DNA of 64,000 bases from Sutcliffiella horikoshii (GTDB lineage: Bacteria > Bacillota > Bacilli > Bacillales > Bacillaceae_I). The stretch spans positions 3,038,001 through 3,102,000 of the forward strand of contig NZ_CP020880.1 in assembly GCF_002157855.1 (NCBI RefSeq), in the 5' to 3' direction. Numbering within the stretch: the stretch's first letter is position 1; each line of letters opens with the position of its first letter. The translations under genes were made by a program, and so were the position numbers. Below the pieces are notes generated by a model. That model saw only the letters and a program-made list of their open reading frames with translations, was not told the origin of the DNA and ran no database searches. Below, piece by piece: positions 6,210 to 63,829 of the stretch.

Positions 6210-6246
6210 TCTACGTTAATTCGTTAAAGTAAATCACCTTTTTTAC

Positions 6247-6639: not shown

Positions 6640-6645
6640 CTTGCT

Positions 6646-6675: not shown

Positions 6676-6679
6676 GGCT

Positions 6680-6856
6680 TTATTGAATTCGATTCAATTG
6701 TTTTTTTAACGATTTCACATCACGCATTGTAATTCCGAACTCAGATGCCAATTCTACGTAGGTGGAATCCTTCTCTTTTTCAATGAAATCATGAAAACTT
6801 ACCCCAAATACATCTCTACTTCCATATGCACGATTATGTTTATCACTAAATTTCAT
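6680..6856 (-). CDS. small YrzK-like protein of unknown function
   Basis: A 58-residue protein between hisS and the amidase gene, the position of yrzK in B. subtilis. I start it at ATG 6856, where AAGGAG lies nine bases upstream; a longer frame extends to 6970 but lacks such a site. It reads 'MKFSDKHNRAYGSRDVFG', then a short helix, then 'YVELASEFGITMRDVKSLKK', which looks like one helix-turn-helix unit of a sigma-70 region 4 or DNA-binding type. It has no signal or membrane segment. Function unknown. Confidence 0.65.
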   Translation of the reverse strand: MKFSDKHNRAYGSRDVFGVSFHDFIEKEKDSTYVELASEFGITMRDVKSLKKQLNRIQ

Positions 6857-6990
6857 CTTTTTACGCTCCTTTTTTGCTACACTAGTATCTATCCTGTCCC
6901 TTTTTTGCCTGTTTCTTTCAAAAATAGCAGGAATTTTTTTCACTTTTGTAGAAAAAGAAAGTTTGATCAAAAAAATAAGGAGGACAAAAC

Positions 6991-8772
6991 TTGGTTCACA
7001 AAGTACATATTTTTCTTATTGCCCTTTTATTATTTTCTACCATTTTTTCTTTTTTAGATCCTTCCACCGTGCAGGCTAACAGAACGGTCGTTGTGGCAAC
7101 CGATGTATTGAACGTGAGGGAGACCCCGGATGCAAATGGCATCATCATTTCGAAAGTACAACGAGGTGAATCCTACCCGGTTGTAGACAGCCAGGGAGAA
7201 TGGTTGAAGATTCAAGTCACTTCCTCAAAGTCCGGATGGGTGGCGTCGTTTCTTGTCACCGAAAGCAGCGATGGTGCCCGTTCCACGGCATCAAGATCAA
7301 GCGAGGGTGCCAATGTACAAGTTCTAACCGATGACCTTCGTGTTCGCTCAGGACCTGGTACAAACTTTTCTGTAGTCGGTTTTCTTCATGCAAACGCGAC
7401 ATCCGTGCAATACCTAGAGGAAAATGAAAACTGGGTAAAAGTTCATTTCGACGGAGTAGAAGGTTGGGTCGCCAAAGAGTTTGTGACGATTCTGGCCAAA
7501 AAGAAGGAAGAACAACAGACTGAAACAGAAGAGTCAATCGAAGAAACCGAAGGACAAACTGCCACTATCACAACAGATGGGTTGAACATCAGGAGTGAAC
7601 CTTCTACACAAAGCGAGGTGCTGGGTACTTTATCAAGTGGTCAGCAAGTAGAAGTTCTTGCAATCCGTGGAGAATGGTTGAATATTTCTTTTAACGGGAC
7701 AGTCGGCTGGATACATAGTGATTATGCAAATATTAGCCAACCCTCATCTGATTCTGGCACACAAGGCTCAGGTTCACCAAAAACGGAGGCAACCATCAAA
7801 GTGGCAGGTCTGAATGTAAGAAGTGAACCAACTCTGAATGGAAAAGTATTGGAGCAACTACCACAGGGTACAACAGTCAGTATTATCAGCGAGAGAAACA
7901 ACTGGTGTGAAATACAATATGACAATGGCAAAACGGGCTGGATTGCTGGATGGTTTCTTGAAAAAAGCGGTGTATCATCACCAGCTCCATCCCAAAGCAG
8001 TGATGGAACCATTATAATCGTTGATGATGCCACCAATATCAGAAGTGCACCTTCCACCGATTCCAACGTGATATTACGTGCAGACGAAGGAGAAGAATTC
8101 TCTATTGTTGCTGTGGAAGACAACTGGTATAAAATAAAGCTTCATGACGGATCAGAAGGTTTTGTTGCTGGATGGATTGTTGCGACGAAAGGAAACGCGA
8201 CCAGCATAAAAAGAGCTGGTGCAGAACAATATTTAACTAATAAGGTAATTGTCATCGACCCTGGTCATGGTGGCCGAGATGTTGGAGCAATCGGTGCACA
8301 AGGAACCTTTGAAAAAGATCTAACACTTAGAACTTCCTTGCTTTTACAAGACAAATTGAAAGCTGCCGGTGCGACAGTTTACATGACTAGAATGTCTGAT
8401 ACTTCGGTTCCTTTACAATCTAGACCTCAAATGGCGAACTATCACGGTGCAGATGCCTTTCTAAGCATCCATTATGATAGTATTGATGATTCGAGCGTCA
8501 CTGGGACCACTACTTACTATTATGGCTCTTCAGATCAAGACCTGGCGGACAGTGTGCATTCTTCCCTAGTACAATTTACGAATCTACGAGACAGAGAAGT
8601 GCGCCAAGAAAACTACTTAGTATTAAGAGAAAGCATGCAACCTTCCCTGCTTTTAGAACTGGGATATATCAGTAACCGCGGAGAGGAAATTACCGTCCTT
8701 ACAGGTGATTTCCAAGAGCGGGCATCTACTGCAATTTATCAGGGATTGGCTCAATATTTTAGAGGGAATTAA
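6991..8772 (+). CDS. secreted N-acetylmuramoyl-L-alanine amidase with five SH3b domains
   Basis: A 593-residue exported cell-wall hydrolase (YrvJ-like). It starts at TTG with AAGGAGG seven bases upstream. A signal peptide covers residues 1-30. Five bacterial SH3 (SH3b/SH3_3) wall-binding repeats follow, each with the signature 'LNVR' or 'LNIRSEP' (about residues 31-92, 105-165, 187-247, 262-322, 338-400). The catalytic Amidase_3 domain fills about 415-593, with zinc ligands expected in 'VIDPGHGG', the glutamate of 'GTFEKDLTL' and the histidine of 'FLSIHYD', and the catalytic glutamate in 'LLLELGYISN'. It cleaves the bond between muramic acid and the stem peptide. A terminator follows. Confidence 0.93.
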   Translation: MVHKVHIFLIALLLFSTIFSFLDPSTVQANRTVVVATDVLNVRETPDANGIIISKVQRGESYPVVDSQGEWLKIQVTSSKSGWVASFLVTESSDGARSTASRSSEGANVQVLTDDLRVRSGPGTNFSVVGFLHANATSVQYLEENENWVKVHFDGVEGWVAKEFVTILAKKKEEQQTETEESIEETEGQTATITTDGLNIRSEPSTQSEVLGTLSSGQQVEVLAIRGEWLNISFNGTVGWIHSDYANISQPSSDSGTQGSGSPKTEATIKVAGLNVRSEPTLNGKVLEQLPQGTTVSIISERNNWCEIQYDNGKTGWIAGWFLEKSGVSSPAPSQSSDGTIIIVDDATNIRSAPSTDSNVILRADEGEEFSIVAVEDNWYKIKLHDGSEGFVAGWIVATKGNATSIKRAGAEQYLTNKVIVIDPGHGGRDVGAIGAQGTFEKDLTLRTSLLLQDKLKAAGATVYMTRMSDTSVPLQSRPQMANYHGADAFLSIHYDSIDDSSVTGTTTYYYGSSDQDLADSVHSSLVQFTNLRDREVRQENYLVLRESMQPSLLLELGYISNRGEEITVLTGDFQERASTAIYQGLAQYFRGN

Positions 8773-44337: not shown

Positions 44338-45207
44338 TTAGTATGAATACAGGATATCTCCTATATCAATTGTCGTCAACTTCTCCTTGAAATAAGCATG
44401 AAGCAGTTCATTTTCATCAAGTGGCGGCTGTTTGTCCTTCCCCTTCATTACAATGATATTGTGCTTGCAGTCTCGCTTAAACTTCTGAAGCACCTGATGA
44501 ATCTTTTCTTTTTCATCCACGACAATCGGCGTTATGGTAGAAAACGTAGAATTCTTTCCATAATAACGCTCCATCAAAAAACGCATAAAGACAAAGTGCC
44601 GCTGCTTCCACTCTGTATATAAGGAAAAAAACAAGAACACGGTGATAATCCATATATTAATGTGCAACGGATCAATGACCAGATAGGTTGCACAAAAAAG
44701 TGCTAGGAAAACAAAAGAAGCTTGCAATGTTCGCTCATGCGCCTGTGCAAATGCAGACGTGCGACTGAACAACAACCCCATGATTTTCCCTCCGTCCAGA
44801 GGCCATATCGGCAAAAGGTTCACAAGGAAAATCATTATATTAAGTGTAAAAAACATTTCCCACATGCCTGCCGAAAGATAGCCCAGCTTAAAAAGAAGAA
44901 ACCCTCCTGCTGAAAGCCATACATGCTGTAATGGACCAGCTAGCGTCACTATTAATTCCTCTTTTAACGGACGGTTGCCATGCTCCTCCATTTCAGCAAC
45001 CCCGCCAAACGGCAGCAACAAAATCTGTTTGATGCGCCAGTTGTAATGCGTCGCCGCAACTCCATGGCCCAATTCATGAATAAATACGATAAAAAACAAG
45101 ATAAGTAGCTCCCGGAAATTTGCCGTTAAAATGGCCAACCCGGCGAGAAACCACATCAGTGGATGTACATGAACCTTCTGTAATAGCCTCAGCCATTTAT
45201 TATTCAA
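44338..45207 (-). CDS. spoIVFB: pro-sigma-K processing metalloprotease SpoIVFB
   Basis: A 289-residue intramembrane site-2 protease that cleaves pro-sigma K in the mother cell. The zinc motif is 'FIVFIHELGHGVAA' (HExxH at about residue 43), and the third ligand is in 'INLLPIWPLDGGKIMGLL', both in membrane segments. A CBS-like cytoplasmic domain covers about 220-289. It overlaps spoIVFA by eight bases. BofC, which tunes the timing of its activation, is encoded at 27.4 kb. Confidence 0.95.
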   Translation of the reverse strand: MNNKWLRLLQKVHVHPLMWFLAGLAILTANFRELLILFFIVFIHELGHGVAATHYNWRIKQILLLPFGGVAEMEEHGNRPLKEELIVTLAGPLQHVWLSAGGFLLFKLGYLSAGMWEMFFTLNIMIFLVNLLPIWPLDGGKIMGLLFSRTSAFAQAHERTLQASFVFLALFCATYLVIDPLHINIWIITVFLFFSLYTEWKQRHFVFMRFLMERYYGKNSTFSTITPIVVDEKEKIHQVLQKFKRDCKHNIIVMKGKDKQPPLDENELLHAYFKEKLTTIDIGDILYSY

Positions 45208-45982
45208 ATGAGATCACCTGCATAGGGTCGATAAATTCATTGTCTTTTTGGATGGCAAAATAAAACATCCCCTTTGAACCATCCTCAAGCATCGTCGTTT
45301 TTCCAAGGACATCGCCTGTTTCAATAAAATCAAAAAGCTTCACTTCCACTTCACCAAGCTGCCCATACCACGTATAGCTATCATCAGGATGTTGGATGAT
45401 GATTGTCTTGCCGGTATCCTCCCTGTTTCCCACAAACGACACAAACCCACCGTTCATGGCCTCCACATTGGAATGAGCCATCGTTTCCACCATCACACCT
45501 TGCCCGTTTGCCTCAAAGCTTTCGAAAACTCGTCCAGACGCCGGAATGACGTAATCATCTGCATTGACATTAGGCTGCTCTGTATTTTTCGGCAATGGCA
45601 ATAATGCCAACGACTTTCCGAATTTATCCTCATACCAAGTAGTAAACGCTGCAAACTGGAAGCTGTGCTCCATTGTTTCTGAAACAAACTGCCGTGGCTT
45701 TTCAAAAGTACTCGCAGGATTTTGGAACATAATGGCCACCACCAGCACAAGAATCGCCGAAGCCAAAATCTTAAACAGGAAAAGCTCCTTGTTGAACAAC
45801 GGATGCCCCCCACCTCCATCAGGTCCCCCTTCATAAGAGGTGTAACTAGAACCACCATACCTTTCCTCATCACGCACCAACTGCTGCGTGGACCCTATGT
45901 TACTTCGTTTCGGCAACTGATTCTGCCGCTGCCGTCTTCTCTTTGCGGCCCTTCTTCTTATTTCCGCTATCCGATCATTCAT
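45200..45982 (-). CDS. spoIVFA: stage IV sporulation protein FA (SpoIVFA)
   Basis: A 260-residue membrane protein that holds SpoIVFB inactive until SpoIVB cuts it. The basic N-terminus (residues 1-70) is cytoplasmic, one helix lies at about 70-86 ('LFKILASAILVLVVAIMF'), and the C-terminal region has an M23/LytM-like fold ('GFVSFVGNREDTGKTIIIQH'). It lacks a full LytM zinc set, as expected for a non-catalytic member. It is followed by spoIVFB. Confidence 0.92.
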   Translation of the reverse strand: MNDRIAEIRRRAAKRRRQRQNQLPKRSNIGSTQQLVRDEERYGGSSYTSYEGGPDGGGGHPLFNKELFLFKILASAILVLVVAIMFQNPASTFEKPRQFVSETMEHSFQFAAFTTWYEDKFGKSLALLPLPKNTEQPNVNADDYVIPASGRVFESFEANGQGVMVETMAHSNVEAMNGGFVSFVGNREDTGKTIIIQHPDDSYTWYGQLGEVEVKLFDFIETGDVLGKTTMLEDGSKGMFYFAIQKDNEFIDPMQVISFE

Positions 45983-46056: not shown

Positions 46057-46092
46057 CAAAAAGAAAAACTTTCCCAGTGAAGAGAAAGTTTA
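46057..46092 (-). terminator. terminator of the two-gene prepilin unit
   Basis: On the minus strand AAACTTTC (46091-46084) pairs with GAAAGTTT (46073-46066), followed by a T run. It overlaps the end of the gene. Confidence 0.85.
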
Positions 46093-47025
46093 ATTGTATT
46101 CTGTGTTATTAACTTTGATACTTCCGTTACCTTTTTTATTAGGTTTTTTTATAAACATCGCATTTCCCTGAATGTCGATGAGACCATTTCCTTTTAGACT
46201 AACATTGTTATGGAAGTCAGCCGCTCCATTAACAAGAATTTCATTGCTTCCCCCAATATCAATACTATTATTAAATACTCCAGATCCCTCTATTAATAGA
46301 TAACCTTTAGGGGAACCTTTTAGATCAACTGTCCCATTAATTACAATAGAACCGTAAACTTCCAACTTCGCTTGTGCTTTTATATCAATGTGTTCATTTA
46401 TTACGAAGCTACCTTTTAAAATGCAGTGATCTTTTGCTTTCAATGTAATCGTACCGTTCTTTTTTTTATTTAATAAACATGATAGCCCCTCATTTTCAGT
46501 AGGAGGTACTGGTGGGTCTGGATTTGGATTTGGATCTGGGCTTGGGTCTGGATCTGTATCCGGGTTTGAGTTATCTTTGTTCGATGAATTTTTTATTTGA
46601 AATACTTCTTCTTCTTCAAACACCTGATTATCAACAATTGCTCTACTTGTATATTTAATAATATAGTAACCATTCTCCTCTGTAATGGAGCTATAGCCAA
46701 CCTGATACGACAGCTTATTGGATTCTGAAGGTAATACTAATGGTTCTGTTTCATCAACAGTAGACAATTTATCTTTAATGTCCCCTAATGATAAACTCGT
46801 CTCTCCACCGATTTCACCTATTTTACTATTTATTTCATTCCGAAAATAATGTTTCCCCATATCAATTAAGTTTTCTGATTGAATTAACACCTCTGACTTA
46901 TTATTTTGCAAGGTGCTATTCATCACAGCGCTCGCTAAAACCGGCGCCATCAATCCAACAACAACAATTATTAGCAATACCATTAGAAGGGTGTAGCCAG
47001 ATTCATTTTTCATTAATGGTTTCAA
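46090..47025 (-). CDS. PilX/GspK-like prepilin with C-terminal beta-helix module
   Basis: A 311-residue protein starting at TTG 47025 with AAAGGGGG upstream. The class III leader is 'MKPLMKNESG' followed by 'YTLLMVLLIIVVVGLMAPVL'. Glu at mature position 5 is replaced by Met, as in tip pilins of the GspK/PilX group. A helical pilin stem runs to about residue 65, a small domain to 145, and an Asp/Pro repeat linker ('PDTDPDPSPDPNPNPDPPVP') to 178. The rest (about 185-305) is a series of short Gly/Asn/Val strands such as 'GYLLIEGSGVFNNSIDIGGS', resembling a bactofilin-like right-handed beta-helix. Two Cys bracket its start. AT-rich relative to neighbours. Confidence 0.75.
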   Translation of the reverse strand: MKPLMKNESGYTLLMVLLIIVVVGLMAPVLASAVMNSTLQNNKSEVLIQSENLIDMGKHYFRNEINSKIGEIGGETSLSLGDIKDKLSTVDETEPLVLPSESNKLSYQVGYSSITEENGYYIIKYTSRAIVDNQVFEEEEVFQIKNSSNKDNSNPDTDPDPSPDPNPNPDPPVPPTENEGLSCLLNKKKNGTITLKAKDHCILKGSFVINEHIDIKAQAKLEVYGSIVINGTVDLKGSPKGYLLIEGSGVFNNSIDIGGSNEILVNGAADFHNNVSLKGNGLIDIQGNAMFIKKPNKKGNGSIKVNNTEYN

Positions 47026-47041
47026 TTGTAAATTCCCCCTT

Positions 47042-47527
47042 TTATTCCCCTATATTTATATAGTGAAAGGTATCATAGATAAATCGTTCTTTATCGTTTG
47101 TTAAAGAATGACTAATTTTAATATGTAATCGATATAAATCGAGAGAATTTTCATTAGTATTCTGGCAAATATTGATGTAAGTAAAATATTTTCTATTATT
47201 CATTTCTGTAACTAGTCTATTTGGGTCCTGAGAATCTGTAGTGAAATTTAATTCATCAGCTAAGAAGGAACTAATTGAAAGTGGATTTTGACAGGAGTAA
47301 TTAATATTAGGCGTACTTTCTAATAGGTCTATTATACTACTATTTTCCACATTGTACAAAATAGATTCTGCAACATTCATTCCTGTTAAGTTATCTTCTT
47401 CACGAATAGAATGTAGAAGCGCTTGTGAAAAAAAGCTCAAGAATGATAGAATAATAATACTAAGTATCACAATGGATAATAATACCTCTAATAATGTAAA
47501 GCCTTTTTCTTCATTTATATTTTTCAA
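47042..47527 (-). CDS. PilV/GspI-like minor prepilin
   Basis: A 161-residue protein starting at TTG 47527. The leader 'NINEEKG' precedes 'FTLLEVLLSIVILSIIILSF', a perfect class III site with Phe1 and Glu5, so ComC (58.6 kb) should process it. 'TGMNVAESILYNVENSSI' after the stem resembles the PilV/GspI family. It contains two Cys that may form the usual pilin disulfide. The gap to the PilX-like gene is 16 bases, so the two are one unit, divergent from the PilW-like gene. The leader lacks a strong ribosome site. Confidence 0.75.
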   Translation of the reverse strand: MKNINEEKGFTLLEVLLSIVILSIIILSFLSFFSQALLHSIREEDNLTGMNVAESILYNVENSSIIDLLESTPNINYSCQNPLSISSFLADELNFTTDSQDPNRLVTEMNNRKYFTYINICQNTNENSLDLYRLHIKISHSLTNDKERFIYDTFHYINIGE

Positions 47528-47598
47528 TTGTACCTACCTACTTTTCTACTATTAAAACACATAAGTTTAATTTTATCCCATAAGAAGATGGTGAGAAT

Positions 47599-48876
47599 AT
47601 GACTAAAAAAAATTTATTAAACGAACAAGGCATTACCTTAATTGAGTTACTTGCAACTATCGTAATAAGCTCATTAATTATTGGCCTGGTTACAAATGTG
47701 TTCATTTCCGCTTCTAAGCAAAATGAACTAGTAACTAATCATAATTCACTGAGACAAGAAGCTAATCTTATTATTAGCAAATTAAGACAAATTCATCAAG
47801 CAGAATCTTATACTTTGTGTTACGAATCTAATAATCAGTTCTATTTTGATAAGCAGTTTACCAATAAAATTACATCTGATCAATTTTACTTTTCTGATGT
47901 ATTAATTGATAATTCTAGTACGTCTATTACTAGTAATGGGCAGTGCATAGAAAATGTAGACGTACTTTCACCACTATTAGTTAAATTCACATTACAAAAC
48001 TTAGACGGTCAAACTTACGATATGAATACTGTTATTAATCGTTTAAACCCAATTACAGCTGTTGAAACACCACCTTTGGAAGAGGAAGAAGAAGTCATTA
48101 TTGATGAAGATTCTGGTAATTACACCGACTCACCATCTAGATGTACATATGAAGGTAATACTAGAACTAATGACTCAACGTTTGCACCGACATGGGGAAC
48201 AAAGTGTCAAATCACAAAAGTAAAGAATGGTAGTTTCATGTTAAACAATAATGTTACAGTTTTCGAAAGTACTGAAATAAATGTAGACCATAATCTTATT
48301 GCAAAGCTGCCTTATACAATGCAACATCAATCAAACTTAAATGTTGGAAAGAGCGCAAAGTTCTACGATGCTATTAAACTTCTATCTGATTCTGTAATGT
48401 ATATATCTCAAAATCTCGAAGCATTAAAAGATATTCGGTTGGACAATAATTCAAATATCATAGTAGAAAGAGACGCTAAAATTGAAGGGTTAGAAACTTA
48501 TACTAATACAAACTTTGATATTGGCGGTGACTTTCTCGCTGACAAACAAGTTAAGCTAGAGAATCAATCGACCATATCAATAGGTGGAAATGCACAAATT
48601 GAGGGTGACTTAGAGATTAAAGGTAAAGGCAATGTTTCTGTTCTTGGAAATTATCATTCTAGAGGCATGACAAAACTCCAAGATACAGCGTTATTGCAAA
48701 TTTATGGAGATGCTACTTTCGAATCGCCTATATCTTTAATTGGCGGAAATAGTGGAAAGGTATGTGTGAAAGGAGAAGCCATCTTTTCCTCCTCACAAGA
48801 CCGCAGTAAAGTTTCCTATGCTTCTTCTTGCGAAGGGCAACCTAATGGTACAATTTTCGTATTAAATAATCAGTAA
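47599..48876 (+). CDS. PilW/GspJ-like prepilin with large beta-helix module
   Basis: A 425-residue protein with leader 'LLNEQG' followed by 'ITLIELLATIVISSLIIGLV', a proper class III site with Glu5. The pilin head extends to about residue 155, an acidic linker ('TPPLEEEEEVIIDEDSGNY') to 176, then Cys residues and, from about 205 to 410, a long run of short beta strands ('FDIGGDFLADKQVKLENQST', 'GDLEIKGKGNVSVLGNYHSR') like the beta-helix of the PilX-like protein across the divergent gap. Two further Cys lie near the end. A GATGGTGAG site precedes the ATG. The product would be an exceptionally long pilin. Confidence 0.75.
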   Translation: MTKKNLLNEQGITLIELLATIVISSLIIGLVTNVFISASKQNELVTNHNSLRQEANLIISKLRQIHQAESYTLCYESNNQFYFDKQFTNKITSDQFYFSDVLIDNSSTSITSNGQCIENVDVLSPLLVKFTLQNLDGQTYDMNTVINRLNPITAVETPPLEEEEEVIIDEDSGNYTDSPSRCTYEGNTRTNDSTFAPTWGTKCQITKVKNGSFMLNNNVTVFESTEINVDHNLIAKLPYTMQHQSNLNVGKSAKFYDAIKLLSDSVMYISQNLEALKDIRLDNNSNIIVERDAKIEGLETYTNTNFDIGGDFLADKQVKLENQSTISIGGNAQIEGDLEIKGKGNVSVLGNYHSRGMTKLQDTALLQIYGDATFESPISLIGGNSGKVCVKGEAIFSSSQDRSKVSYASSCEGQPNGTIFVLNNQ

Positions 48877-48919
48877 AAAAAGCGGAAGGGAAATTTGCAT
48901 TTTCCCTTACCGCTTTTTT
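48877..48919. terminator. bidirectional terminator between the PilW-like gene and minD
   Basis: AAAAAAAGCGG and CCGCTTTTTTA enclose an AGGGAAAA/TTTTCCCT inner stem. It separates two convergent genes. Confidence 0.9.
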
Positions 48920-48923
48920 ATTT

Positions 48924-49724
48924 TTACCGTACACCAAAGAATTTTTTAATTTTAAACATAACTCCCTTGTTCTCATCTTCAAGGGATTGAAGCGGAACGG
49001 ATTCCCCAAGGATTCGCCTTGCAATGTTGCGATATGCAATGGACGCTCTACTTGTAGTATCCATGACGATCGGTTCACCGCTGTTGGACGCGCGGATGAC
49101 ACTGTCGTCATCTGCTACGATTCCAATGATATCGATTGCCAAAATGGATACAATTTCATCTACATCCAGCATCTCACCGTTTTTCACCATGTGGTTTCGG
49201 ATACGGTTAACTACAAGTCTTGGTGGTTCCATGTTTTCTTCTTTTTCAAGCAGGCCGATAATTCGGTCTGCGTCTCTAACGGAGGAAACTTCAGGTGTGG
49301 TCACGACAATGGCTCTGTCTGCGCCTGCGATGGCGTTTTGGAAGCCTTGTTCGATTCCTGCAGGACAATCTATAATAATATAATCATAGTCTTGTTTTAA
49401 CTCTGCAACTAGTTTCTTCATCTGTTCAGGCTTTACTGCCGACTTGTCACTTGTTTGAGCGGCCGGCAGAAGCTTTAAGCATTCAAAGCGTTTATCATTG
49501 ATTAAAGCCTGGTGCGTTTTACAACGTCCTTCGATTACGTCCACCAGGTCATAGATAATACGATTTTCAAGCCCCATGACAACATCTAAGTTCCTTAACC
49601 CAATATCTGTATCTACTAAACATACTCTTTTTCCTTGTAAGGCAAGAGCCGTTCCGATATTTGCAGAAGTTGTTGTCTTGCCGACTCCACCTTTACCAGA
49701 AGTAATTACGATAGCCTCTCCCAC
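48924..49724 (-). CDS. minD: septum site-determining protein MinD
   Basis: A 266-residue ParA-like ATPase that places MinC at the poles and keeps division away from them. The deviant Walker A is 'VITSGKGGVGKTTTSANIGT' at the N-terminus, with 'VDTDIGLRNLDVVMGLENRI' and 'IIDCPAGIEQGF'. The last residues 'GVMFKIKKFFGVR' form the amphipathic membrane-targeting helix. It follows minC by three bases, the usual order. Confidence 0.97.
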   Translation of the reverse strand: MGEAIVITSGKGGVGKTTTSANIGTALALQGKRVCLVDTDIGLRNLDVVMGLENRIIYDLVDVIEGRCKTHQALINDKRFECLKLLPAAQTSDKSAVKPEQMKKLVAELKQDYDYIIIDCPAGIEQGFQNAIAGADRAIVVTTPEVSSVRDADRIIGLLEKEENMEPPRLVVNRIRNHMVKNGEMLDVDEIVSILAIDIIGIVADDDSVIRASNSGEPIVMDTTSRASIAYRNIARRILGESVPLQSLEDENKGVMFKIKKFFGVR

Positions 49725-54937: not shown

Positions 54938-56056
54938 TTAATATAAAAACGCTGTCGCGTCTAATAGTTTCTGTTGGGCATTCCATAAAGTTTCTGCGCT
55001 ATTGGATTCTTGGTATGCCTTGATATCTTCGAAAGCACCAGCAAGTGATGTTTTCCATCCTTTTGTTGCGTCCGTTAGGTCTGCCTCTTTAATGGCTGCC
55101 ACTTTTTCAAAGGAAGCATTTAGGCTTTCCACGGTAGCGCTGTCTAGAGAGCTTCCTTGAAGAAGTTGAGCTGTCGCCACTGTTAATTGACTGTAAAGCA
55201 CTTGTCCTTCTTGCAATAATAGCGTGTCCTGCTCTGTAAGGGAGTCTATTGTTTTTTCAGATAAAGTCAGTTCTTTTGCAAAAGGTTCAAATCCTTTTGC
55301 TTGGACACCCGTTGCAATTTGTTTCATTCCATCTACACTATGCCCTACCGCCATCAAGACAAATGTAGGTTCTGATCCGACTGCGACTGCAGGAAAACCG
55401 GCAGCTTTCAATCTGTCCATTTCCGCATTGGCGCCGTCCTTTGTGGTAAAAGCACCTGCTTGAAGAACGGATATACTTTGGGCAGGTATCGTAGCAGTTC
55501 CATCTCCTTTGACTGGTGCAGGGGTCTCTTGTGTGTCAGTTGTTTCTGTTGTTGCCGGGGTTGCTGCCGGTACTGAAGGATTCACTGGTGATTCTGACAT
55601 GTTCATGACACCAAGAATGAGAAACCCGAGACATGTTCCAATACCAATTGCCATACCAATGGAAACTAACAACTGTTTAGAGAAGGATGGAGGGACTAAT
55701 TTTTTCTTTTTTCCAAACGGGGCTGGCCGCACTTTGGAACTTTTTCCTTTTTCCTTGTTCATCTGGCGGAGATCTTCAATATAAGAGGGCTTAGTTGAAG
55801 TATCTTTACTGGATTTTGTTTTTTCTGGTGTTTCTTCTGGAAGGACCCATTCAAATTCTTCTTCTTTTTTCTCAGCTGCTGCTGCGGATTCATCCACAAT
55901 AATAATTGGCAGTTCCTCTTCTTTGAGATCTTCCTTTACCGGGATCTCTTTTTGATGAGGTTGGACACTTTCCTTTCTATTCTTTTTCTTCTTTTTGCCG
56001 TGGCCGTATGAGCTTTCTTTTCCGTTAATTTTTATTTTCAGCTGGTGATTGTCCAC
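54938..56056 (-). CDS. spoIIB: SpoIIB, SPOR-domain sporulation protein
   Basis: A 372-residue protein of engulfment. I start it at GTG 56056 ('MDNHQLKIKINGKESSYGHG') with GGAGGTG upstream. A long charged cytoplasmic part (1-140) is followed by one helix at about 143-163 ('LLVSIGMAIGIGTCLGFLIL'). A Thr/Pro-rich linker then leads to a SPOR peptidoglycan-binding domain (about 195-265, 'VLQAGAFTTKDGANAEMDRL'). SpoIIB localises to the septum and speeds engulfment. Its neighbour in B. subtilis is also comC. Confidence 0.88.
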   Translation of the reverse strand: MDNHQLKIKINGKESSYGHGKKKKKNRKESVQPHQKEIPVKEDLKEEELPIIIVDESAAAAEKKEEEFEWVLPEETPEKTKSSKDTSTKPSYIEDLRQMNKEKGKSSKVRPAPFGKKKKLVPPSFSKQLLVSIGMAIGIGTCLGFLILGVMNMSESPVNPSVPAATPATTETTDTQETPAPVKGDGTATIPAQSISVLQAGAFTTKDGANAEMDRLKAAGFPAVAVGSEPTFVLMAVGHSVDGMKQIATGVQAKGFEPFAKELTLSEKTIDSLTEQDTLLLQEGQVLYSQLTVATAQLLQGSSLDSATVESLNASFEKVAAIKEADLTDATKGWKTSLAGAFEDIKAYQESNSAETLWNAQQKLLDATAFLY

Positions 56057-56124
56057 TTTTCCCACCTCCGGGTACATTTGACAATTTTTGTCTTAGTCAG
56101 ATTTGTTTCATCCTATCATAGGCC

Positions 56125-56221: not shown

Positions 56222-56932
56222 TTAGTCATTGTCGATAAATGGATTTACCCGGTTCCCAGGTTCAGGAACGGATAAAGGCGGAAGTTCCTCGATTAAATCC
56301 TCCAACTCTGGATGGTAGAAAGCTGAAAGAGTAACGGAATACGTTAATGGTTGCAGTTCCTGTTCGGTTGAAGTCACTTCCGGCTGACCAGTGAAGCTCA
56401 CTGATTCAACTTGGGTAATTCTAGTTAAACTTTCCAAAGAAGTTAAAAAAGCAGAGAGGTCTTCATAAGTTTCCGATTCAACAGACAGGTTGACCGTCAC
56501 TTTTTTTAACCCTTCAGGAAGGTAAGCTTCTTCTTGCACTGTCCCTTCCTCTTCATCATGCATCGTCTCATATTCTTCTAGAGTAGTTGTTGCAGGGACA
56601 AATTCCCCTTCCCCAAAAGACATATTGACAATCGTACTCTCAGACAGCACTTCTGCTTTCTCCAATTCCAAGATGAGCTGTTCTAAAAAAGGGGTAACCG
56701 GAATCTTACGCTGTAATTCTACCGTTGTATTTCCATTAGCCTGCGCGGTTTCTTCTTGTTGCTCTAACACTTGAATAAGCTGCTCTTCAATTGCTTTTTC
56801 TTGTTGAAGCTGTTCAGCCCGAACTTCCTTTGGTGCATAGGATAAATAATAGAAGCCTGCAATTCCTAATACAATGAGGAGAACACAGGTGCTTAAAAGA
56901 ACATAATGTTTTCGCTCTAGTTCAATCATCAT
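56222..56932 (-). CDS. pilO: PilO-like type IV pilus alignment protein
   Basis: A 236-residue bitopic membrane protein. A short cytoplasmic start leads to one helix (about 9-30, 'YVLLSTCVLLIVLGIAGFYY'), a coiled coil (about 35-65) and a ferredoxin-like extracellular domain ('VTVNLSVESETYEDLSAFLT', 'LESLTRITQVESVSFTG'), the architecture of PilO. Sequence identity to Gram-negative PilO is low; the call rests on architecture and gene order pilM-pilN-pilO. It overlaps pilN by four bases. Confidence 0.85.
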   Translation of the reverse strand: MMIELERKHYVLLSTCVLLIVLGIAGFYYLSYAPKEVRAEQLQQEKAIEEQLIQVLEQQEETAQANGNTTVELQRKIPVTPFLEQLILELEKAEVLSESTIVNMSFGEGEFVPATTTLEEYETMHDEEEGTVQEEAYLPEGLKKVTVNLSVESETYEDLSAFLTSLESLTRITQVESVSFTGQPEVTSTEQELQPLTYSVTLSAFYHPELEDLIEELPPLSVPEPGNRVNPFIDND

Positions 56933-57582
56933 AGTTCTTCGCCTCCATCCTCATCGGTTTCGGTATCAGTCTCTGTCTCCGTACCGTCCTCTGCTTCTTC
57001 CTCTTCTAATTCATCCATTGCCTGAAATGCAGCCTTGTCAAAACCAAGTGTGTATTGACCTACATACCTAGGTAATACATTCACTGTTTCTTCGTCCCCG
57101 ACTTCAACAGTAGAAATAGATGAAAGATCGATAGAATGATATTGAGGAGATTCATTTAAATGATAGAGAAAGTAAGCTGCATCTCTTGATTCGTCAAACT
57201 GAACAGAAAGATTTAGAAGCCCTGTTTCATCATAAGAAAAACTTTGAATGAAACCGCGTTCTGGCAACAACCTAATTAGATCTTGCATGACCGGAACCAT
57301 TTCCAGCGGATACTCCTCTGCCCATGCTACCGTATCTTCCAATCGCTGCGCGGAAGAAGAATTTTGCGGACGGTTCATCGCCTCTTCTTTTGCCATCCTT
57401 AATTGCTGCACCATCTCGAGATCCTGTTCAGCCGTTTCGACATCATTATTTATCATATTAGAAAAAGTAAAAAGAATGATTGCCACAAACAATAGGAAAA
57501 AGGCACAAATGCCATACACAAGAGGTGTGGTGATATTTCGTGATTTTCTCTTTGGTAATAAGTCGATATCAACTAGCATCAT
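56929..57582 (-). CDS. pilN: PilN-like type IV pilus assembly protein
   Basis: A 217-residue protein with the cytoplasmic PilM-binding peptide at the N-terminus ('VDIDLLPKRKSR', the Gram-positive version of the INLLP motif), one helix (about 20-45), a coiled coil (45-75) and a PilN/GspL-like domain ('LIRLLPERGFIQSFSYDETG'). The last 25 residues are Glu/Asp/Thr-rich. It overlaps both pilM and pilO by four bases, indicating a stoichiometric membrane complex. Confidence 0.87.
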   Translation of the reverse strand: MMLVDIDLLPKRKSRNITTPLVYGICAFFLLFVAIILFTFSNMINNDVETAEQDLEMVQQLRMAKEEAMNRPQNSSSAQRLEDTVAWAEEYPLEMVPVMQDLIRLLPERGFIQSFSYDETGLLNLSVQFDESRDAAYFLYHLNESPQYHSIDLSSISTVEVGDEETVNVLPRYVGQYTLGFDKAAFQAMDELEEEEAEDGTETETDTETDEDGGEEL

Positions 57583-58562
57583 TGCACCTCTTTTAATGCC
57601 AACCCTAAAGAATAGTAGTATTTCGGGTCAACCGTATCTTGGTCTTGTGTATAAACATCCTGCTCAAACGTATCTACTTTTACTGAAATCTTTTCTCTCA
57701 GCTTTGATAATATTAAAGGAAGGTTAGGATGATCGCCATGAAGGAGTATTCGATTAATTTCTTCATTTCCTTGATTCAAGGAGTAACGGAAGAAACTCAT
57801 GATACGCTCCACTTCTACGATAAAATCCTCTAAAAACACATTGAATTGAACAATATCCCCAGCCCACTCTAACTGCGTATTGCTAACCGATACTTCCCAA
57901 ACCTTCATATCTTGCGGAAAGGCCACGGTCCTCATAAACACAGGAACATGATTCACGAAGATGCTCAGAGTAATACAGCTCACGTCAAAATGAACGACTA
58001 ATAAATGATCCTGTTCATTACGCTGACCAAATTCATAATAAAGGCGATACAGACAAAGCGCGGAAACATCTGCTGCAGCCGGCTTAAGTTTACTTTCTTC
58101 GAGTAAGTTGGACATCTGTGTTACCACTTCTTCAGGAGAAGCAAAGAGCACAAGCTCCGTCTTTTCCGAGCGATGAAGAACATGAACATCAAATACCGGA
58201 TCCTCAAAAGGTAAGTGAATGGTGGAACCTAACTCCAAATACAAGTGACCAATGATCTCATCGTCCATAATGTTAGACGGGATGGTCAATTTTCGAGTGA
58301 CGACGTATTGATCTGGCACGACAAAGCGAACATGCTTGCGTTTCAGTCCCCAGTCTTCCACACATTCCCCTAAAATTAGACGAAATATATTTTCATCGAC
58401 AATCTTTCCATCACGGACAATATTTGGCGGCAAAAATCGCTCATTTGTACGTTTAACAGTGAGAGGATCTAAACTCTTCAACTCTACCATTCGAATAACA
58501 TGGTCACGGACAATAATATTTATGAAGTTGTTTTGCTTTGGTTGCAGAAACGAAAATTCCAT
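57579..58562 (-). CDS. pilM: PilM, actin-like type IV pilus assembly ATPase
   Basis: A 327-residue FtsA-like protein. 'FINIIVRDHVIRMVELKSLD' at the start and 'KRKHVRFVVPDQYVVTRKLT' are typical; the middle has 'LVVHFDVSCITLSIFVNHVP' where other PilM have the phosphate 2 loop, here lacking several glycines. It should recruit PilN on the cytoplasmic side. AAGGAG precedes the ATG. The variant nucleotide loop means ATP binding should not be assumed. Confidence 0.87.
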   Translation of the reverse strand: MEFSFLQPKQNNFINIIVRDHVIRMVELKSLDPLTVKRTNERFLPPNIVRDGKIVDENIFRLILGECVEDWGLKRKHVRFVVPDQYVVTRKLTIPSNIMDDEIIGHLYLELGSTIHLPFEDPVFDVHVLHRSEKTELVLFASPEEVVTQMSNLLEESKLKPAAADVSALCLYRLYYEFGQRNEQDHLLVVHFDVSCITLSIFVNHVPVFMRTVAFPQDMKVWEVSVSNTQLEWAGDIVQFNVFLEDFIVEVERIMSFFRYSLNQGNEEINRILLHGDHPNLPLILSKLREKISVKVDTFEQDVYTQDQDTVDPKYYYSLGLALKEVQ

Positions 58563-58596: not shown

Positions 58597-59349
58597 CTAG
58601 AAGAGTAAGCTAAAATACCAATGAAGTATCTGTTCCCCTTTAAAATAAGTGATAAGTGCTGCCAGTGCGATAGAAGGTGCAAAAGGGAAAGGGACACCTC
58701 TTTTTACTTTTCCCAACAGCATTCCGATAAGTGCCGCAATCATGCCGATGAGAGAGGAAAGGAAAAATGTTAGAATCACAAGTTCCCATCCTAAAACAAA
58801 ACCCAAAACAGCGAATAGCTTTACGTCCCCTCCACCCATACCACCTTTAGAGATAACGGCAACTAAAAATGGGATAAGGAACCCTACCGCCATTCCAATC
58901 AGATGGTCTGGTATTGTTTGGAACGGAATGAAGATGCGTTCGATAATAAACAATCCTAAGAAAAACAGCAGAATCTTATTTGGGATAATCATATAATGCA
59001 AGTCTGATATAACAATGATGATGAGCAACGAAATGAACGTCCAAGCAACAATCAGTTCGTAGGTCCATCCCATCATAAGCGGAGCTAGGACAAATAGCAT
59101 AGCCGTCAAAAGCTCGAATAATGGATAAATAGGAGACACGGACTTTTGACAGTGCCGACATCTCCCTTTAAGAAATACATATGAAAGGACGGGAACTAAA
59201 TCTAGCCCCGTCAATTTGGTCTTACAATTCGTACAATGTGATCTAGGTGTGACTATTGACTCACCCTTTGGAATCCGTAGGCCGACTACGTTGTAGAAGG
59301 AGCCTAGGAGGAGGGCTGAAATTATTATATATAGATATATATTTATCAT
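58597..59349 (-). CDS. comC: prepilin peptidase ComC/PilD (A24A)
   Basis: A 250-residue membrane protease that cuts and N-methylates prepilins. The zinc-type cysteines are in 'SHCTNCKTKLTGLD' and 'LKGRCRHCQKSVSP', so this is the bifunctional long form. The catalytic aspartates lie in 'IIVISDLHYMIIPNKI' and 'KGGMGGGDVKLFAVLGFVLG'. In B. subtilis comC stands alone for competence; here it lies inside a complete pilus operon and should process the major pilin at 59.4 kb and the three prepilins at 46-49 kb. Its own ribosome site is weak. Confidence 0.95.
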   Translation of the reverse strand: MINIYLYIIISALLLGSFYNVVGLRIPKGESIVTPRSHCTNCKTKLTGLDLVPVLSYVFLKGRCRHCQKSVSPIYPLFELLTAMLFVLAPLMMGWTYELIVAWTFISLLIIIVISDLHYMIIPNKILLFFLGLFIIERIFIPFQTIPDHLIGMAVGFLIPFLVAVISKGGMGGGDVKLFAVLGFVLGWELVILTFFLSSLIGMIAALIGMLLGKVKRGVPFPFAPSIALAALITYFKGEQILHWYFSLLF

Positions 59350-59384: not shown

Positions 59385-59798
59385 TTATACTTCATCATCT
59401 TCATCCTCATCAACTACTGGTTTCCCATTTTCGTCAAGAGTAATTGGGTCTCCACCTGTACGAGTAACAGTTACTCCAGTAACTTTATTATCTGCATCAA
59501 ATGTTACACTTACAGTATATTTACCATCATCAAAGTTTTCTAAGTAATTTGCTAAGTCATCTTGGTCTACAGGACTTGTTAATGAAGTTACTGAATCATC
59601 CAATAATGCTAAGCGTGTAGCATTCATTGCTTGTTGGCCCACAGCGATTTGTGCATCCTTTCTACTGTTTTCAATAATATTCCCTATACTCGGTATAGCA
59701 ATCGCAGCGATAATCCCCAAAATAACAACAACAGCAAGTAATTCGATCAATGTTAGTCCTTTTTCGTTCCGAAGCATATTTCTACATTTTTGTAACAT
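59385..59798 (-). CDS. major type IV prepilin
   Basis: A 137-residue pilin with a short leader ending 'MLRNEKG' and the mature start 'LTLIELLAVVVILGIIAAIA' (Glu5 present), followed by the classic 'IPSIGNIIENSRKDAQIAVG'. The head is small (about 90 residues) without cysteines and ends in a strongly acidic tail ('VVDEDEDDEV'). Position between pilC and comC and abundance-type promoter support major pilin. It differs from ComGC, which is encoded in the comG operon elsewhere. A small GGGATT/AATCCC hairpin (59362-59383) follows. Confidence 0.88.
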   Translation of the reverse strand: MLQKCRNMLRNEKGLTLIELLAVVVILGIIAAIAIPSIGNIIENSRKDAQIAVGQQAMNATRLALLDDSVTSLTSPVDQDDLANYLENFDDGKYTVSVTFDADNKVTGVTVTRTGGDPITLDENGKPVVDEDEDDEV

Positions 59799-59894: not shown

Positions 59895-61103
59895 CTACAT
59901 TTGAATGTGGTTAAAAATATCGAACATTGGAACTAGAATAGATGTGACTATAGTCCCTACTATGACAGCGAGTACTACAATCATTAATGGCTCTATTAAA
60001 CTTTTTAATCTGTCGGTTGCGTAGTCTACTTCTTTTTCATAGAACTCGGCGATTTTATCGAGCATCGAATCAAGTGATCCTGTGCTTTCTCCAATCGTAA
60101 TCATCTGCGTAACAAGCGGCGGGAACGCCCAATGGTCTTTCATGGGACCTGTTAGGGACTCCCCTTTTTCTAGTTCTATTTTACTAGCAGCTAGAACGCG
60201 TGCAATAACTTCGTTCTCGACAATTTTCTCCACAATGGAGATGGCCTGCAGGATCGGCACCGAACTGGAAAATAAGGAACTGAGTGTCCTTGTTAACCTA
60301 GCAATAACCGCCTTCTGTAACAGCGGCCCGAATATAGGAATGCGCAGTAATGCATAGTCAATGTAGTACTTTGTCTGCTTCTGCTTATTCATCGCCATCA
60401 GTCCCATGACGATAGCTAAAACAATTAATAGAAACAGCCACCAAAAACTCTGCATCCATTCACTCGCCCCAAGGACGAATCTCGTAATCAACGGCAAGTC
60501 GGCTCCAAAATCGCTAAACATCGCAACGAATGTCGGTACTACCCCTACAAGTAAAAAGATAACAACGCCAATGGCGATAACCCCGAGCACTAACGGATAG
60601 GTTAATGCTGACACGATCTTTTGCCTTGTCTCGTTTTGCTTTTCAAACTGTGTGGCAAGGCGGTCTAACGTATCATCTAACGCCCCACTTGCTTCCCCGG
60701 CTTTGATCATGTTGATAAACATAGTAGAAAAGACTTTTGGATGCTTGGCTGCTGCTTCTGATAACGGATTGCCTTGCTTCATCTCTTCTTCTACATCAAA
60801 TAGCACTCGTTTTAACGCTTTACTGGATGTTTGTTGTGCAAGAACATTTGTCGCATCTACCACTGAAATCCCTGCACGGATCAAGGTAGAAAATTGGCGT
60901 AGGAAGATGACAAAGTCACGAAGTTTGACTGGATTCCCGATGGTAATTTCCTTTGTGAAAATGGATTCGGGAACTTCCTCCAGATTCATTACGCGAATTC
61001 CTTTTTCTTTTAGCATCACAAACGCTTCCCGGCGAGAGCTGCTTGTGATGCTTCCTGTTTGCTTGCCGGCTGTATTTCTGCCGGTATACGTGAACCTAGG
61101 CAT
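59895..61103 (-). CDS. pilC: PilC platform protein (type II secretion F family)
   Basis: A 402-residue inner-membrane platform protein with two T2SSF domains (about 68-190 and 271-393) and three helices at about 170, 215 and 375. Motifs 'VIFLRQFSTLIRAGISVVDA', 'MIKAGEASGALDDTLDRLA' and the second-copy 'MITIGESTGSLDSMLDKIAE' are standard. It couples the ATPases PilB and PilT to pilin insertion. It overlaps pilT by eight bases. Confidence 0.95.
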   Translation of the reverse strand: MPRFTYTGRNTAGKQTGSITSSSRREAFVMLKEKGIRVMNLEEVPESIFTKEITIGNPVKLRDFVIFLRQFSTLIRAGISVVDATNVLAQQTSSKALKRVLFDVEEEMKQGNPLSEAAAKHPKVFSTMFINMIKAGEASGALDDTLDRLATQFEKQNETRQKIVSALTYPLVLGVIAIGVVIFLLVGVVPTFVAMFSDFGADLPLITRFVLGASEWMQSFWWLFLLIVLAIVMGLMAMNKQKQTKYYIDYALLRIPIFGPLLQKAVIARLTRTLSSLFSSSVPILQAISIVEKIVENEVIARVLAASKIELEKGESLTGPMKDHWAFPPLVTQMITIGESTGSLDSMLDKIAEFYEKEVDYATDRLKSLIEPLMIVVLAVIVGTIVTSILVPMFDIFNHIQM

Positions 61104-62148
61104 GATGCATCGACTCCTGTAGGAAGCTTTCGGCTGACAGTCTGCTTATGTCGCCCTGCTGGATGAGCCTTTTGATGCTCATATCAAGTGTGTGCATCCC
61201 TTGGGCCTTGCTGGTCTGCATCACGTTTTGAATTTGATGAATCTTTTCGTTGCGGATAAGATTAGCCACTGCCGGTGTATTGACTAAAATCTCGGTGGCC
61301 ACTTTTCTTCCCTGTCTATCAATGGTTGGAAAAAGTCGTTGTGAAACGATGGAAACCAACACTGAAGCAAGCTGAATACGAATCTGAGCTTGCTGCGGAC
61401 CAGGAAACACATCAATGATACGGTCAATAGTAGATGGTGCACTTGTCGTATGTAGAGTACCTAAAACCAGATGACCTGTTTCTGCTGCTGTAATCGCTGT
61501 TTGAATCGTTTCTAAATCACGTAATTCCCCTACCAGAATGATATCTGGATCCTGACGCAGTGAAGCTCGTAAACCCGATGCAAAGCTTCCCGTATCAATA
61601 CCAACCTCACGTTGATCAATCATACATTGATTATGGCGATGCAAATATTCAATCGGATCTTCGAGTGTGATGATATGTTTTTTCTGTGTTCTGTTCATGA
61701 AATCAATCATTGATGCCAGCGTGGTAGATTTACCACTTCCTGTCGGGCCGGTTACGAGAATCAACCCTTGAGGTTTATCCATTAAAGATTGAAGTATCGA
61801 TGGCAGTTGCAGCTCTTCCAAAGAAGGAATCCTTGTCGGTATAATTCGTATCGCTATCGCTACAGAGTTTCGTTGTCTATATGCATTAACACGAAAGCGT
61901 GAGATACCCGGAACACTGTAGGAAAAATCCAATTCCCCCCGTTCCTCAAAGCGTTCCAACATAAATTCAGGAATCATTTGCTTTGCAAGGGTTTCGGTGT
62001 CTTCAGGAGTCAGAGTGTCTTCTCCGTATCGCTTCAGCTCTCCATTAATACGGAAAACAGGTGGCACTCCGACAGAAAGGTGAATGTCGGATGCCTTGAA
62101 TTCATATGCGGCATGTAGCCAACTATTAATTTTTTCAATCATGGTCAT
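61096..62148 (-). CDS. pilT: PilT retraction ATPase
   Basis: A 350-residue hexameric ATPase that powers pilus retraction, hence twitching or DNA/surface pulling. Motifs are 'GEDTLTPEDTETLAKQMIPE', Walker A 'VTGPTGSGKSTTLASMI', Asp box near 'TLEDPIEYLH', Walker B 'DIILVGELRDLETIQTAITA', His box 'GHLVLGTLHTTSAPSTIDRI' and the PilT-specific AIRNLIRE-like 'VANLIRNEKIHQIQ'. Presence of this motif separates it from ComGA and PilB, so the pilus should be retractile. Confidence 0.95.
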   Translation of the reverse strand: MTMIEKINSWLHAAYEFKASDIHLSVGVPPVFRINGELKRYGEDTLTPEDTETLAKQMIPEFMLERFEERGELDFSYSVPGISRFRVNAYRQRNSVAIAIRIIPTRIPSLEELQLPSILQSLMDKPQGLILVTGPTGSGKSTTLASMIDFMNRTQKKHIITLEDPIEYLHRHNQCMIDQREVGIDTGSFASGLRASLRQDPDIILVGELRDLETIQTAITAAETGHLVLGTLHTTSAPSTIDRIIDVFPGPQQAQIRIQLASVLVSIVSQRLFPTIDRQGRKVATEILVNTPAVANLIRNEKIHQIQNVMQTSKAQGMHTLDMSIKRLIQQGDISRLSAESFLQESMHHA

Positions 62149-62152
62149 TCAC

Positions 62153-63829
62153 CTACTCCGATAAAGCGACACGCAATATTTCCTCTGTTGTCGTTAATCC
62201 CATTTTTACTTTTTCTAATCCATCGTCTATTAAAAAAACGGTATCTTGTTCATACGCCAGTTCACGAATGTTTGAAACGGATTCGTTGTTCATGATCATT
62301 TTCTTCATTTTGTCATTGATGACTAACAGCTCATGGATGGCAAGACGTCCTTTGTAGCCTGTCATATTGCACGTTCCGCAGCCTTTTCCACGCGGTACCT
62401 TTTCGACAGTCAAACCCCGTTTTGCGAAAATTTCAATCTCCCTTGCTGTTGGCTCCTCCATTTTTGAACAATCACGGCATACTTTCCTGACCAAACGCTG
62501 AGCAAGCACACCATTGATGGATGATGCCACAAGGAATGGCTCTACCTTCATATCAATCAATCTCGTGATAGTACTGATTGAATCATTGGTATGTAAGGTG
62601 CTTAATACTAGGTGTCCTGTTAAGGAAGCACGAATGGCCACTTCTGCTGTCTCTCTGTCACGAATCTCCCCTACCATGATCACATTGGGATCTTGACGGA
62701 GAATAGCACGGAGTCCCTTGGCAAAGGTCATTCCAACATTGGTATTCACTTGAATCTGATTGATTCCCTCCAGCTGGTACTCAACAGGATCTTCGACGGT
62801 AATGATGTTGATTTCTTCACTGTTCAAGTGATTTAACGCTGCATAGAGCGTCGAGGATTTTCCGGAACCAGTCGGACCAGTAATCAGGATAATACCGGTC
62901 GGGCGATGAATTAGATCCATGAACCGCTCGTTGTTCTTTTTATTGAACCCTAACTGAGAAATGTCGTTTAAAGCGCTGCTCATATCGAGAATACGCATTA
63001 CAATCTTCTCTCCGAAAACGGTAGGCAATGTAGATACACGAACATCGACCGGATGAAAATCAATATTCGTTTTGATTCTCCCGTCCTGCGGTACGCGGTG
63101 TTCAGTAATATCCATTTTTCCAAGTATCTTGATTCTTGCTATCAATACGTTTTGCGTGTGTTTTGGTAAAGTCCTTTCGGTTCGAAGCACACCGTCAATA
63201 CGGTAGCGCACCACTACTTTTGTTTCATGAGGATCGATATGAATATCACTTGCTCTTTGCTGAACCGCATTTTGAAGAAGCTGATTTACAATCCGTACAA
63301 TGGGAGAATCATCTTCTGTGATACCCTCTTCCTGCACCTTCATCTCTACATTTGGTTCAAAACCATCCAATAGCTCGTCCATGGAGTCGGTTGTTTCATA
63401 ATATTTATTGATGGAACGGAGAATGTCATCCTTTGTTGCAATTACAGGCTCCACTTCAAATCCTGTGGATAAACGCAAGTCATCCATAGCAAAGAAATCC
63501 ATCGGATCTGCCATTGCGACAAAGAGCTTATCCTGTTCCTTTTTCAATGGAATGATTAGGTTTCTTTTCGCAAAGTCCTTGGAGATTAAGTGGATCAGTT
63601 TTTCATCAAGCGGATAACGATACAAGCTGACATGCGGTATCCCTAATTGGAATTCCAATACCTCAATTAGTTGCTGTTCGGTGATATATCCTTTTTGAAG
63701 CAGGACATCTCCAATTTTTTGTTCACGAGTTTTTTCTTTTAATGCGCTTTGCAATTGACTTTCTGTGATGATCCCGGCATCAACTAGCAGGTCACCAAGT
63801 CTTTTTCTGATTTGTACCATTGGATTCAT
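62153..63829 (-). CDS. pilB: PilB extension ATPase (GspE family)
   Basis: A 558-residue ATPase that powers pilus assembly. The N-terminal T2SSE_N/MshEN-like domain (1-150; 'GDVLLQKGYITEQQLIEVLE') may bind c-di-GMP in relatives. The catalytic part has 'QRASDIHIDPHETKVVVRYR', Walker A 'ITGPTGSGKSSTLYAALN', Walker B 'NVIMVGEIRDRETAEVAIRA' and a Cys4 zinc motif ('RKVCRDCSKMEE', 'CGTCNMTGYKGR'). It lies four bases before pilT. An in-frame N-terminal domain makes it longer than ComGA. Confidence 0.95.
   Translation of the reverse strand: MNPMVQIRKRLGDLLVDAGIITESQLQSALKEKTREQKIGDVLLQKGYITEQQLIEVLEFQLGIPHVSLYRYPLDEKLIHLISKDFAKRNLIIPLKKEQDKLFVAMADPMDFFAMDDLRLSTGFEVEPVIATKDDILRSINKYYETTDSMDELLDGFEPNVEMKVQEEGITEDDSPIVRIVNQLLQNAVQQRASDIHIDPHETKVVVRYRIDGVLRTERTLPKHTQNVLIARIKILGKMDITEHRVPQDGRIKTNIDFHPVDVRVSTLPTVFGEKIVMRILDMSSALNDISQLGFNKKNNERFMDLIHRPTGIILITGPTGSGKSSTLYAALNHLNSEEINIITVEDPVEYQLEGINQIQVNTNVGMTFAKGLRAILRQDPNVIMVGEIRDRETAEVAIRASLTGHLVLSTLHTNDSISTITRLIDMKVEPFLVASSINGVLAQRLVRKVCRDCSKMEEPTAREIEIFAKRGLTVEKVPRGKGCGTCNMTGYKGRLAIHELLVINDKMKKMIMNNESVSNIRELAYEQDTVFLIDDGLEKVKMGLTTTEEILRVALSE

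Follow-up and report, generated by a model that had tools for sequence, protein, structure and literature searches.

Type IV pilins that carry an additional folded module at the pilus tip have been described in two settings (statements on published systems refer throughout to excerpts of the cited papers). ComZ of Thermus thermophilus, a GspK-like pilin without the glutamate at mature position 5 (Glu5), carries a beta-solenoid of some 380 residues that interrupts the pilin domain ahead of its final strand; it has been argued that ComZ occupies the tip of a Gram-negative competence pilus (PMC6561018). The Streptococcus sanguinis pilins PilB and PilC consist of a pilin followed by a C-terminal module, a vWA domain or a lectin, and belong to a set of three pilins that has been modelled onto the tip of a monoderm type IV pilus (PMC8179133, PMC9934059). 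In the authors' model the bulky modules of this set fit solely at the tip; in I/J/K tip complexes a K-type subunit that lacks Glu5 forms the cap (PMC9934059). Modular pilins comprise 264 architectures, in which ComZ is cited as a solenoid module; an alpha domain is inserted in GspK, neither GspI nor GspJ is modular, and the word 'bactofilin' is absent from the main text (PMC8179133). The excerpt of a survey of Gram-positive pili contains no beta-helix term and states that the pil operon of Bacillus sp. NRRL B-14911 'may be the first report' (PMC3244431). Here we describe an island of three prepilin genes in a stretch of 64,000 nucleotides of Sutcliffiella horikoshii (contig NZ_CP020880.1; in the following, the window), two of whose products are predicted to end in a beta-helix.

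Like ComZ, the PilX-like protein of the island is a GspK-like pilin without Glu5 bearing a beta-solenoid-type module; unlike in ComZ, the module is C-terminal, stands behind a flexible linker, occurs on one or both of two pilins and belongs to a monoderm PilB/PilT pilus. The arrangement of pilin and C-terminal module in a three-pilin set is that of S. sanguinis, but the modules are predicted beta-helices. With GspI/GspJ/GspK (PilV/PilW/PilX) the island shares three linked prepilin genes and a K-type member without Glu5, and it differs from them by the inserted alpha domain of GspK and the non-modular GspI and GspJ described above. The tapirins of Caldicellulosiruptor, whose beta-helix binds cellulose, share the predicted fold, and no pilin part is named in the excerpt that describes them (PMC7142884). 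A beta-solenoid on a tip pilin and modular tip pilins therefore already have precedents, and it is the variant found here that is new. Among the titles and abstract openings searched, with subscription papers outside the scope, no report of beta-helical minor pilins in Bacillaceae was found.

Three prepilins, two with predicted C-terminal beta-helices

The PilX-like and PilV-like genes form one unit on the minus strand, divergent from the PilW-like gene on the plus strand; the spacing is 16 bp between the PilX and PilV genes and 71 bp between the PilV and PilW genes. A preliminary description of this DNA had proposed exactly this set, with class III leaders and with linkers rich in Asp/Pro (PilX) and in Glu (PilW), and the open reading frames, signals and linkers can all be read at the following positions:

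46090..47025, minus strand: PilX-like (GspK-like) prepilin with C-terminal beta-helix, 311 aa (open reading frame, AlphaFold2)
46588..46998, minus strand: PilX residues 10-146, pilin module (long helix 8-68, sheet 96-146)
46495..46578, minus strand: PilX residues 150-177, disordered Asp/Pro linker (predicted local distance difference test, pLDDT, < 50)
46111..46485, minus strand: PilX residues 181-305, beta-helix module, about six coils of 20-22 residues (AlphaFold2)
47042..47527, minus strand: PilV-like (GspI-like) prepilin without extra module, 161 aa (N_methyl)
47599..48876, plus strand: PilW-like (GspJ-like) prepilin with C-terminal beta-helix, 425 aa (open reading frame, AlphaFold2)
47629..48054, plus strand: PilW residues 11-152, pilin module
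48064..48123, plus strand: PilW residues 156-175, Glu-rich linker (sequence)
48142..48873, plus strand: PilW residues 182-425, C-terminal module (about 287-400 modelled as beta-helix)

The three signals read GYTLLM, GFTLLE and GITLIE, with cleavage after the Gly and a hydrophobic N-terminal helix; PilX starts at a TTG or at an internal ATG. PilV is a clear prepilin (N_methyl 28.4 bits, cut-off 21.2), and its matches to the ComGE, PilV and GspI models all lie below their cut-offs. PilW is borderline, with 19.4 bits for N_methyl (again cut-off 21.2) and, for TIGR02532 (cut-off 16.3), 13.5 bits in the protein scan and 17.8 bits in the genome search. PilX has no Pfam family at E <= 1 and is assigned by its sequence pattern together with the predicted model. 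Its mature position 5 is M, L, I or A and never Glu in all eight aligned sequences, as expected of a GspK/PilX tip subunit. Invariant in the eight island sequences are Cys 183 and Cys 201 of PilX, Cys 74 and Cys 116 in the pilin module of PilW, and Cys 182, 203, 389 and 411 in its C-terminal part. PilX shows the modular-pilin layout of pilin module, linker and second folded module; the pilin head of PilW is poorly modelled.

The AlphaFold2 model of PilX, computed from an 11-row alignment, folds residues 181-305 into a beta-helix (block pLDDT 82-93) that, as modelled, follows the pilin sheet and the disordered linker and is not inserted in the sheet as in ComZ. The model of PilW, computed from the single sequence, has regular coils at about 287-400 (pLDDT 66-88 in blocks 301-400, 78-88 in 311-380), with pLDDT < 50 for residues 176-280. 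The repeats of the C-terminal sequences also exceed chance. PilX 178-311 contains 8 copies of a strand-turn motif where 1.7 are expected (p 0.0001), PilW 176-425 contains 7 where 1.8 are expected (p 0.0008), and hydrophobicity is periodic at a lag of 20 residues in both modules (p 0.002); the motif excess is absent from the pilin parts of PilX and PilW and from PilV. The suggestion of GspI/J/K-type minor pilins, two of them with C-terminal beta-helices, is thus borne out.

A direct Foldseek search returned nothing at E <= 0.001 for either model, and usable structural matches came from VIA realignment of the models only. By this measure the fold resembles antigen 43, bactofilin and tapirin, the tapirin C-terminal domain being the top match of PilW. 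Profile searches of PDB sequences gave only weak geopilin N-termini and chance matches. The modules had been called bactofilin-like, which holds for the predicted fold but not for the score: PilW reaches 13.7 bits against the PF04519 cut-off of 27.9 and PilX is unmatched, so membership by score is rejected. Bactofilins are cytoplasmic, cytoskeletal proteins without a pilin leader; the island modules are fused to a prepilin leader and hence exported. A bactofilin search elsewhere in the window genome gave two matches, both below the cut-off.

Minor-pilin sets across the genus

All 16 genomes of the genus contain pilB, including the eight that carry the island, and all 16 have a PilW-like match, weak in the layout here called I, where the gene neighbours settle the assignment. 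The contrary outcomes named in the preliminary description did not appear. The sets, denoted V-W-X after PilV, PilW and PilX, occur in three layouts. In layout I (5 of 16: G003, G010, G011, G013, G015) V-W-X stands beside pilB, W has 214-227 aa, and the 572-626 aa of X include a long C-terminal module. Layout II (8 of 16, including the window) is the island, with modules on both X and W. Layout III (G002, G009, G014) combines an X of 168-177 aa without module and a W of 451-525 aa with module; in G014, and for part of the set in G009, it occupies the spoIVFA-minD site, the W of G009 being on another contig. Next to pilB, the eight island genomes and G014 showed no minor-pilin set. In G000 and G007 the genes that are neighbours of V-W-X in layout I lie close to each other with V-W-X missing. 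A single-sequence search of the genome contigs with PilW gave no match, and a profile search gave 28 loci, some of them chance-like.

Several observations accompany these layouts. Between pilB and the minor-pilin site, locus L039 has a VanW-like gene (5844-7334; 25.1 bits, cut-off 27) and a gene for a small membrane protein (7382-7687), a pair that is still present in the two genomes that lack minor pilins at this site, G000 and G007. G016, of a related genus, has two V-W-X sets (L051, L054), one at the spoIVFA-minD site and one beside pilB. Further prepilin-like matches, isolated and not part of the pil, comG or minor-pilin loci, occur in G003, G005 (C12:318283), G006, G010 and G012.

Long pilins across the order

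Of 397 genomes of the order, 264 have pilT and 286 have matches to the A1 profile; as A1 seems to match Com pilins too (many matches have 145-165 aa), these counts are no clean test of co-occurrence. The family sample is small and rule-based: the first listed pilT match of each family except that of the window, which gives 28 families (families without listed matches are missing) and includes 8 loci from stretches retrieved earlier. Prepilins were called by a custom pattern, with some loci settled by reading. A long J- or K-like pilin (316-734 aa) is part of a prepilin set in 27 of the 28 families, near pilT in 26 and elsewhere in one (G131); in G194 no set with a long member was found near pilT. 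The idea of a new Gram-positive design accordingly survives for the variant, but the locus is no one-off and has the precedents named above.

The C-terminal parts of 22 of the 27 long pilins pass a solenoid motif test (p < 0.05) and five fail, although the test is unspecific, as 9 of 79 other open reading frames of at least 300 aa (from 10 of the loci) pass too. The long member is W in three families (G117, G133, G131) and X in the rest. W and X are both long outside the genus as well, in L115, L116 and L119, where both pass the motif test, and in L127 and L129, where one of the two does. Pfam matches at E <= 0.1 among 29 long pilins (these 27 and the two of the island) are Bactofilin (8, the best at 1.7e-6), DUF7305 (3) and pAdhesive_15 (2).

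A VWA protein adjoins 14 of 48 triads with long X and short W, and 0 of 33 triads with long W (Fisher p 0.0005), VWA being called by regular expression over non-independent loci: the counts mix two locus sets with related loci, L075 and L153 are one region entered twice, and the single VWA gene of L126 counts for two triads. One of the two sets, of 40 loci, was taken earlier from the top of the PilW match list and is biased to helix-bearing PilW. A VWA and Big_2 composition is confirmed by Pfam in L026 only. Full-length relatives of this protein occur in 4 of the 16 genomes of the genus, all of layout I, with partial ones in G015 and G006 and no full-length one in the window genome. The VWA protein might be a PilY1-like partner, a monoderm counterpart that types with a module on W do without. 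The VWA-signature proteins beside long-PilX sets have about 670-1510 aa (L026:12277-15258, L033, L034, L036, L073, L076, L079, L126, L153, L156, L157, L165). A different protein, of 790 aa with a lipoprotein-like start, beta-helix-looking repeats and Big_2, lies between two minor-pilin sets at L138:6297-8669.

Exchange and selection

The island and its flanks have different histories. Seven flanking proteins place G000, G005, G006, G007 and G012 in one clade (support 100/100; 97-98% identity), whereas the island pilin modules group G000, G007 and G004 (100/100), in a tree with long branches for G016, G008 and G001. The pilin modules reject the flank clade (approximately unbiased test, p 2e-95), and the flanks reject the grouping of G000, G004 and G007 (p 0.0001). 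Synonymous divergence (dS) agrees: between G004 and G007 it is 0.57-1.45 in the flanks and 0.18-0.49 in the island, a pattern that reads as recent sharing; between G000 and G007 it is 0.11-0.53 in the flanks and 0.92-3.7 in the island, which reads as replacement. The V-W-X cassette thus appears to move between species. In some pairs the cassette itself looks mosaic, since the pilin part and the helix of PilW differ in dS: 0.26 against 1.73 for G005 and G006 (both PilX parts 1.1), and 0.57 against 1.75 for G006 and G012; the contrast is absent between G005 and G012 (0.81 against 0.65). Two dS comparisons gave no finite value. The ratio of nonsynonymous to synonymous divergence in the island is 0.03-0.27, so every part is under purifying selection, and with all finite ratios < 0.3 no positive selection on the helix is seen.

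The island and the pilus machine in the window

The remaining features of the window that bear on the island are:

45200-45982, minus strand: spoIVFA, sporulation gene, island flank
46066..46091, minus strand: terminator-like hairpin at the PilX stop (pattern match only)
48886..48908, both strands: terminator-like hairpin in the gap between the pilW-like gene and minD (pattern match only)
48924-49724, minus strand: minD, cell-division gene, island flank
56222..58562, minus strand: pilM, pilN and pilO-like genes (PilM and PilN above cut-off; PilO 17.7 bits, cut-off 22)
58597..59349, minus strand: prepilin peptidase PilD/ComC (A24_N_bact and Peptidase_A24 above cut-off)
59385..59798, minus strand: major pilin candidate PilA (N_methyl 31 bits, above cut-off)
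59895..63829, minus strand: pilC, pilT and pilB, type IVa pilus machine (PilT above cut-off)

With hairpins predicted after PilX and PilW, the island looks like two insulated units. Its guanine plus cytosine content is 32%, compared with 42% for the window and 43-46% for spoIVFA, minD and minC; that of pilA is likewise low (36%). Going by record titles, the same island recurs in the named relatives Sutcliffiella horikoshii, S. deserti and 'Bacillus horikoshii'. In L024, L029, L030, L031 and L037, unlike in the window, an open reading frame of about 322-332 aa, which resembles a glycerophosphodiester phosphodiesterase, separates pilW from minD.

The operon runs in the order pilB-T-C-A-D-M-N-O on the minus strand from 63829 to 56222. 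PilB (634.9 bits, cut-off 675.65) and PilC/GspF (376.6 bits, cut-off 424) are strong matches, yet below the equivalog cut-offs. PilB (62153-63829) has an N-terminal cyclic di-GMP binding motif (NF053729, 63.6 bits, cut-off 38). PilD of the window likely processes the three prepilins. After pilO, a protein of 379 aa with one membrane segment and no NCBIfam match is encoded at 54938-56077; in the relatives examined its counterpart adjoins the pil operon or maf.

Function of the island

On balance we favour the reading that the island encodes the minor-pilin tip complex (V as I, W as J, X as K) of the one pilT-bearing pilus of this genome, with the helices as binding modules presented on an exchanged cassette. 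PilD would cleave the three prepilins; V, W and X would form a cap that is assembled first, with PilX, lacking Glu5, on top, and PilC and PilB would then polymerise PilA below it. In both PilX and PilW a flexible linker would carry a beta-helix, perhaps disulfide-capped, and the pilus would thereby end in two rod-like modules, presented adhesive domains probably directed at a polysaccharide or another surface. A PilW helix with its own history, as in some species pairs, would retarget the tip. The tip position is suggested by analogy with I/J/K complexes and the S. sanguinis set. In favour of a binding role are the fold neighbours tapirin and antigen 43, the exchange pattern, and a carbohydrate-binding match, exactly at the cut-off, in one of two layout I PilX proteins scanned.

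The same architecture invites other explanations. That the helices constitute a DNA receptor at the pilus tip or dock onto one, a role put forward for Thermus ComZ, and that the pilus serves DNA capture, we regard as unlikely: a separate comG-like pilin cluster exists in 15 of the 16 genomes (none was seen in G001, which is 80% complete), monoderm Com pili bind DNA via ComGD-ComGF (PMC12153270), and, of the 8 genomes with a PilW helix, 7 have a neutral to negative one and G005 has one of +2. The ComZ solenoid moreover lies within the pilin sheet, while the modules here are modelled at the C-terminus, and the alignment to ComZ has a root-mean-square deviation of 23 A across two domains. Self-association of the helices in the manner of antigen 43 or bactofilin, joining tips to each other or to neighbour cells and causing aggregation, is a doubtful alternative, as it draws on a fold match only and variation between species is uninformative on contacts within a strain.

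The long modules could instead be docking or mechanical parts, a wall-piercing spike or a platform for the secreted VWA protein. Some of the longest PilX types adjoin VWA genes, which speaks for such roles, with the non-independence of the loci noted above, yet the window genome has no such VWA relative, and the modules are short. A beta-helix rises about 0.48 nm per coil; by arithmetic PilX with about six coils measures about 3 nm, and PilW, if its whole C-terminal part is helical, about 5-6 nm with 10-12 coils. The Gram-positive wall is far thicker than this, so that the wall-penetrating tip considered in the preliminary description is unlikely, and we give this explanation as a whole little credence. 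Least probable of all is an assignment of the island to the Com pilus or an independent pseudopilus. In its favour, the island has units of its own and begins about 7 kb past the pil operon, ComGE is weakly matched by PilV (25.7 bits, cut-off 49), and the genome also encodes a distant PilB-like ATPase at C1:1442137; set against this are the separate comG-like clusters and the position of V-W-X beside pilB in layout I and near pilT in most sampled families.

Outside S. sanguinis, little is known about the tip of Gram-positive type IV pili and about how a simple filament is retargeted. We see about an even chance that PilB/PilT pili across the order are generally tipped by beta-helices on J, K or both, and that these tips are swappable cassettes, either the whole V-W-X or the PilW helix alone, that give the same machine a new binding tip. 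As such proteins score below the present family-model cut-offs, tip adhesins of this type have probably been missed in annotation. The natural variants, with the module on K, J or both, with alternative loci and with very different tips in close species, make the link between tip sequence and surface recognition directly testable.
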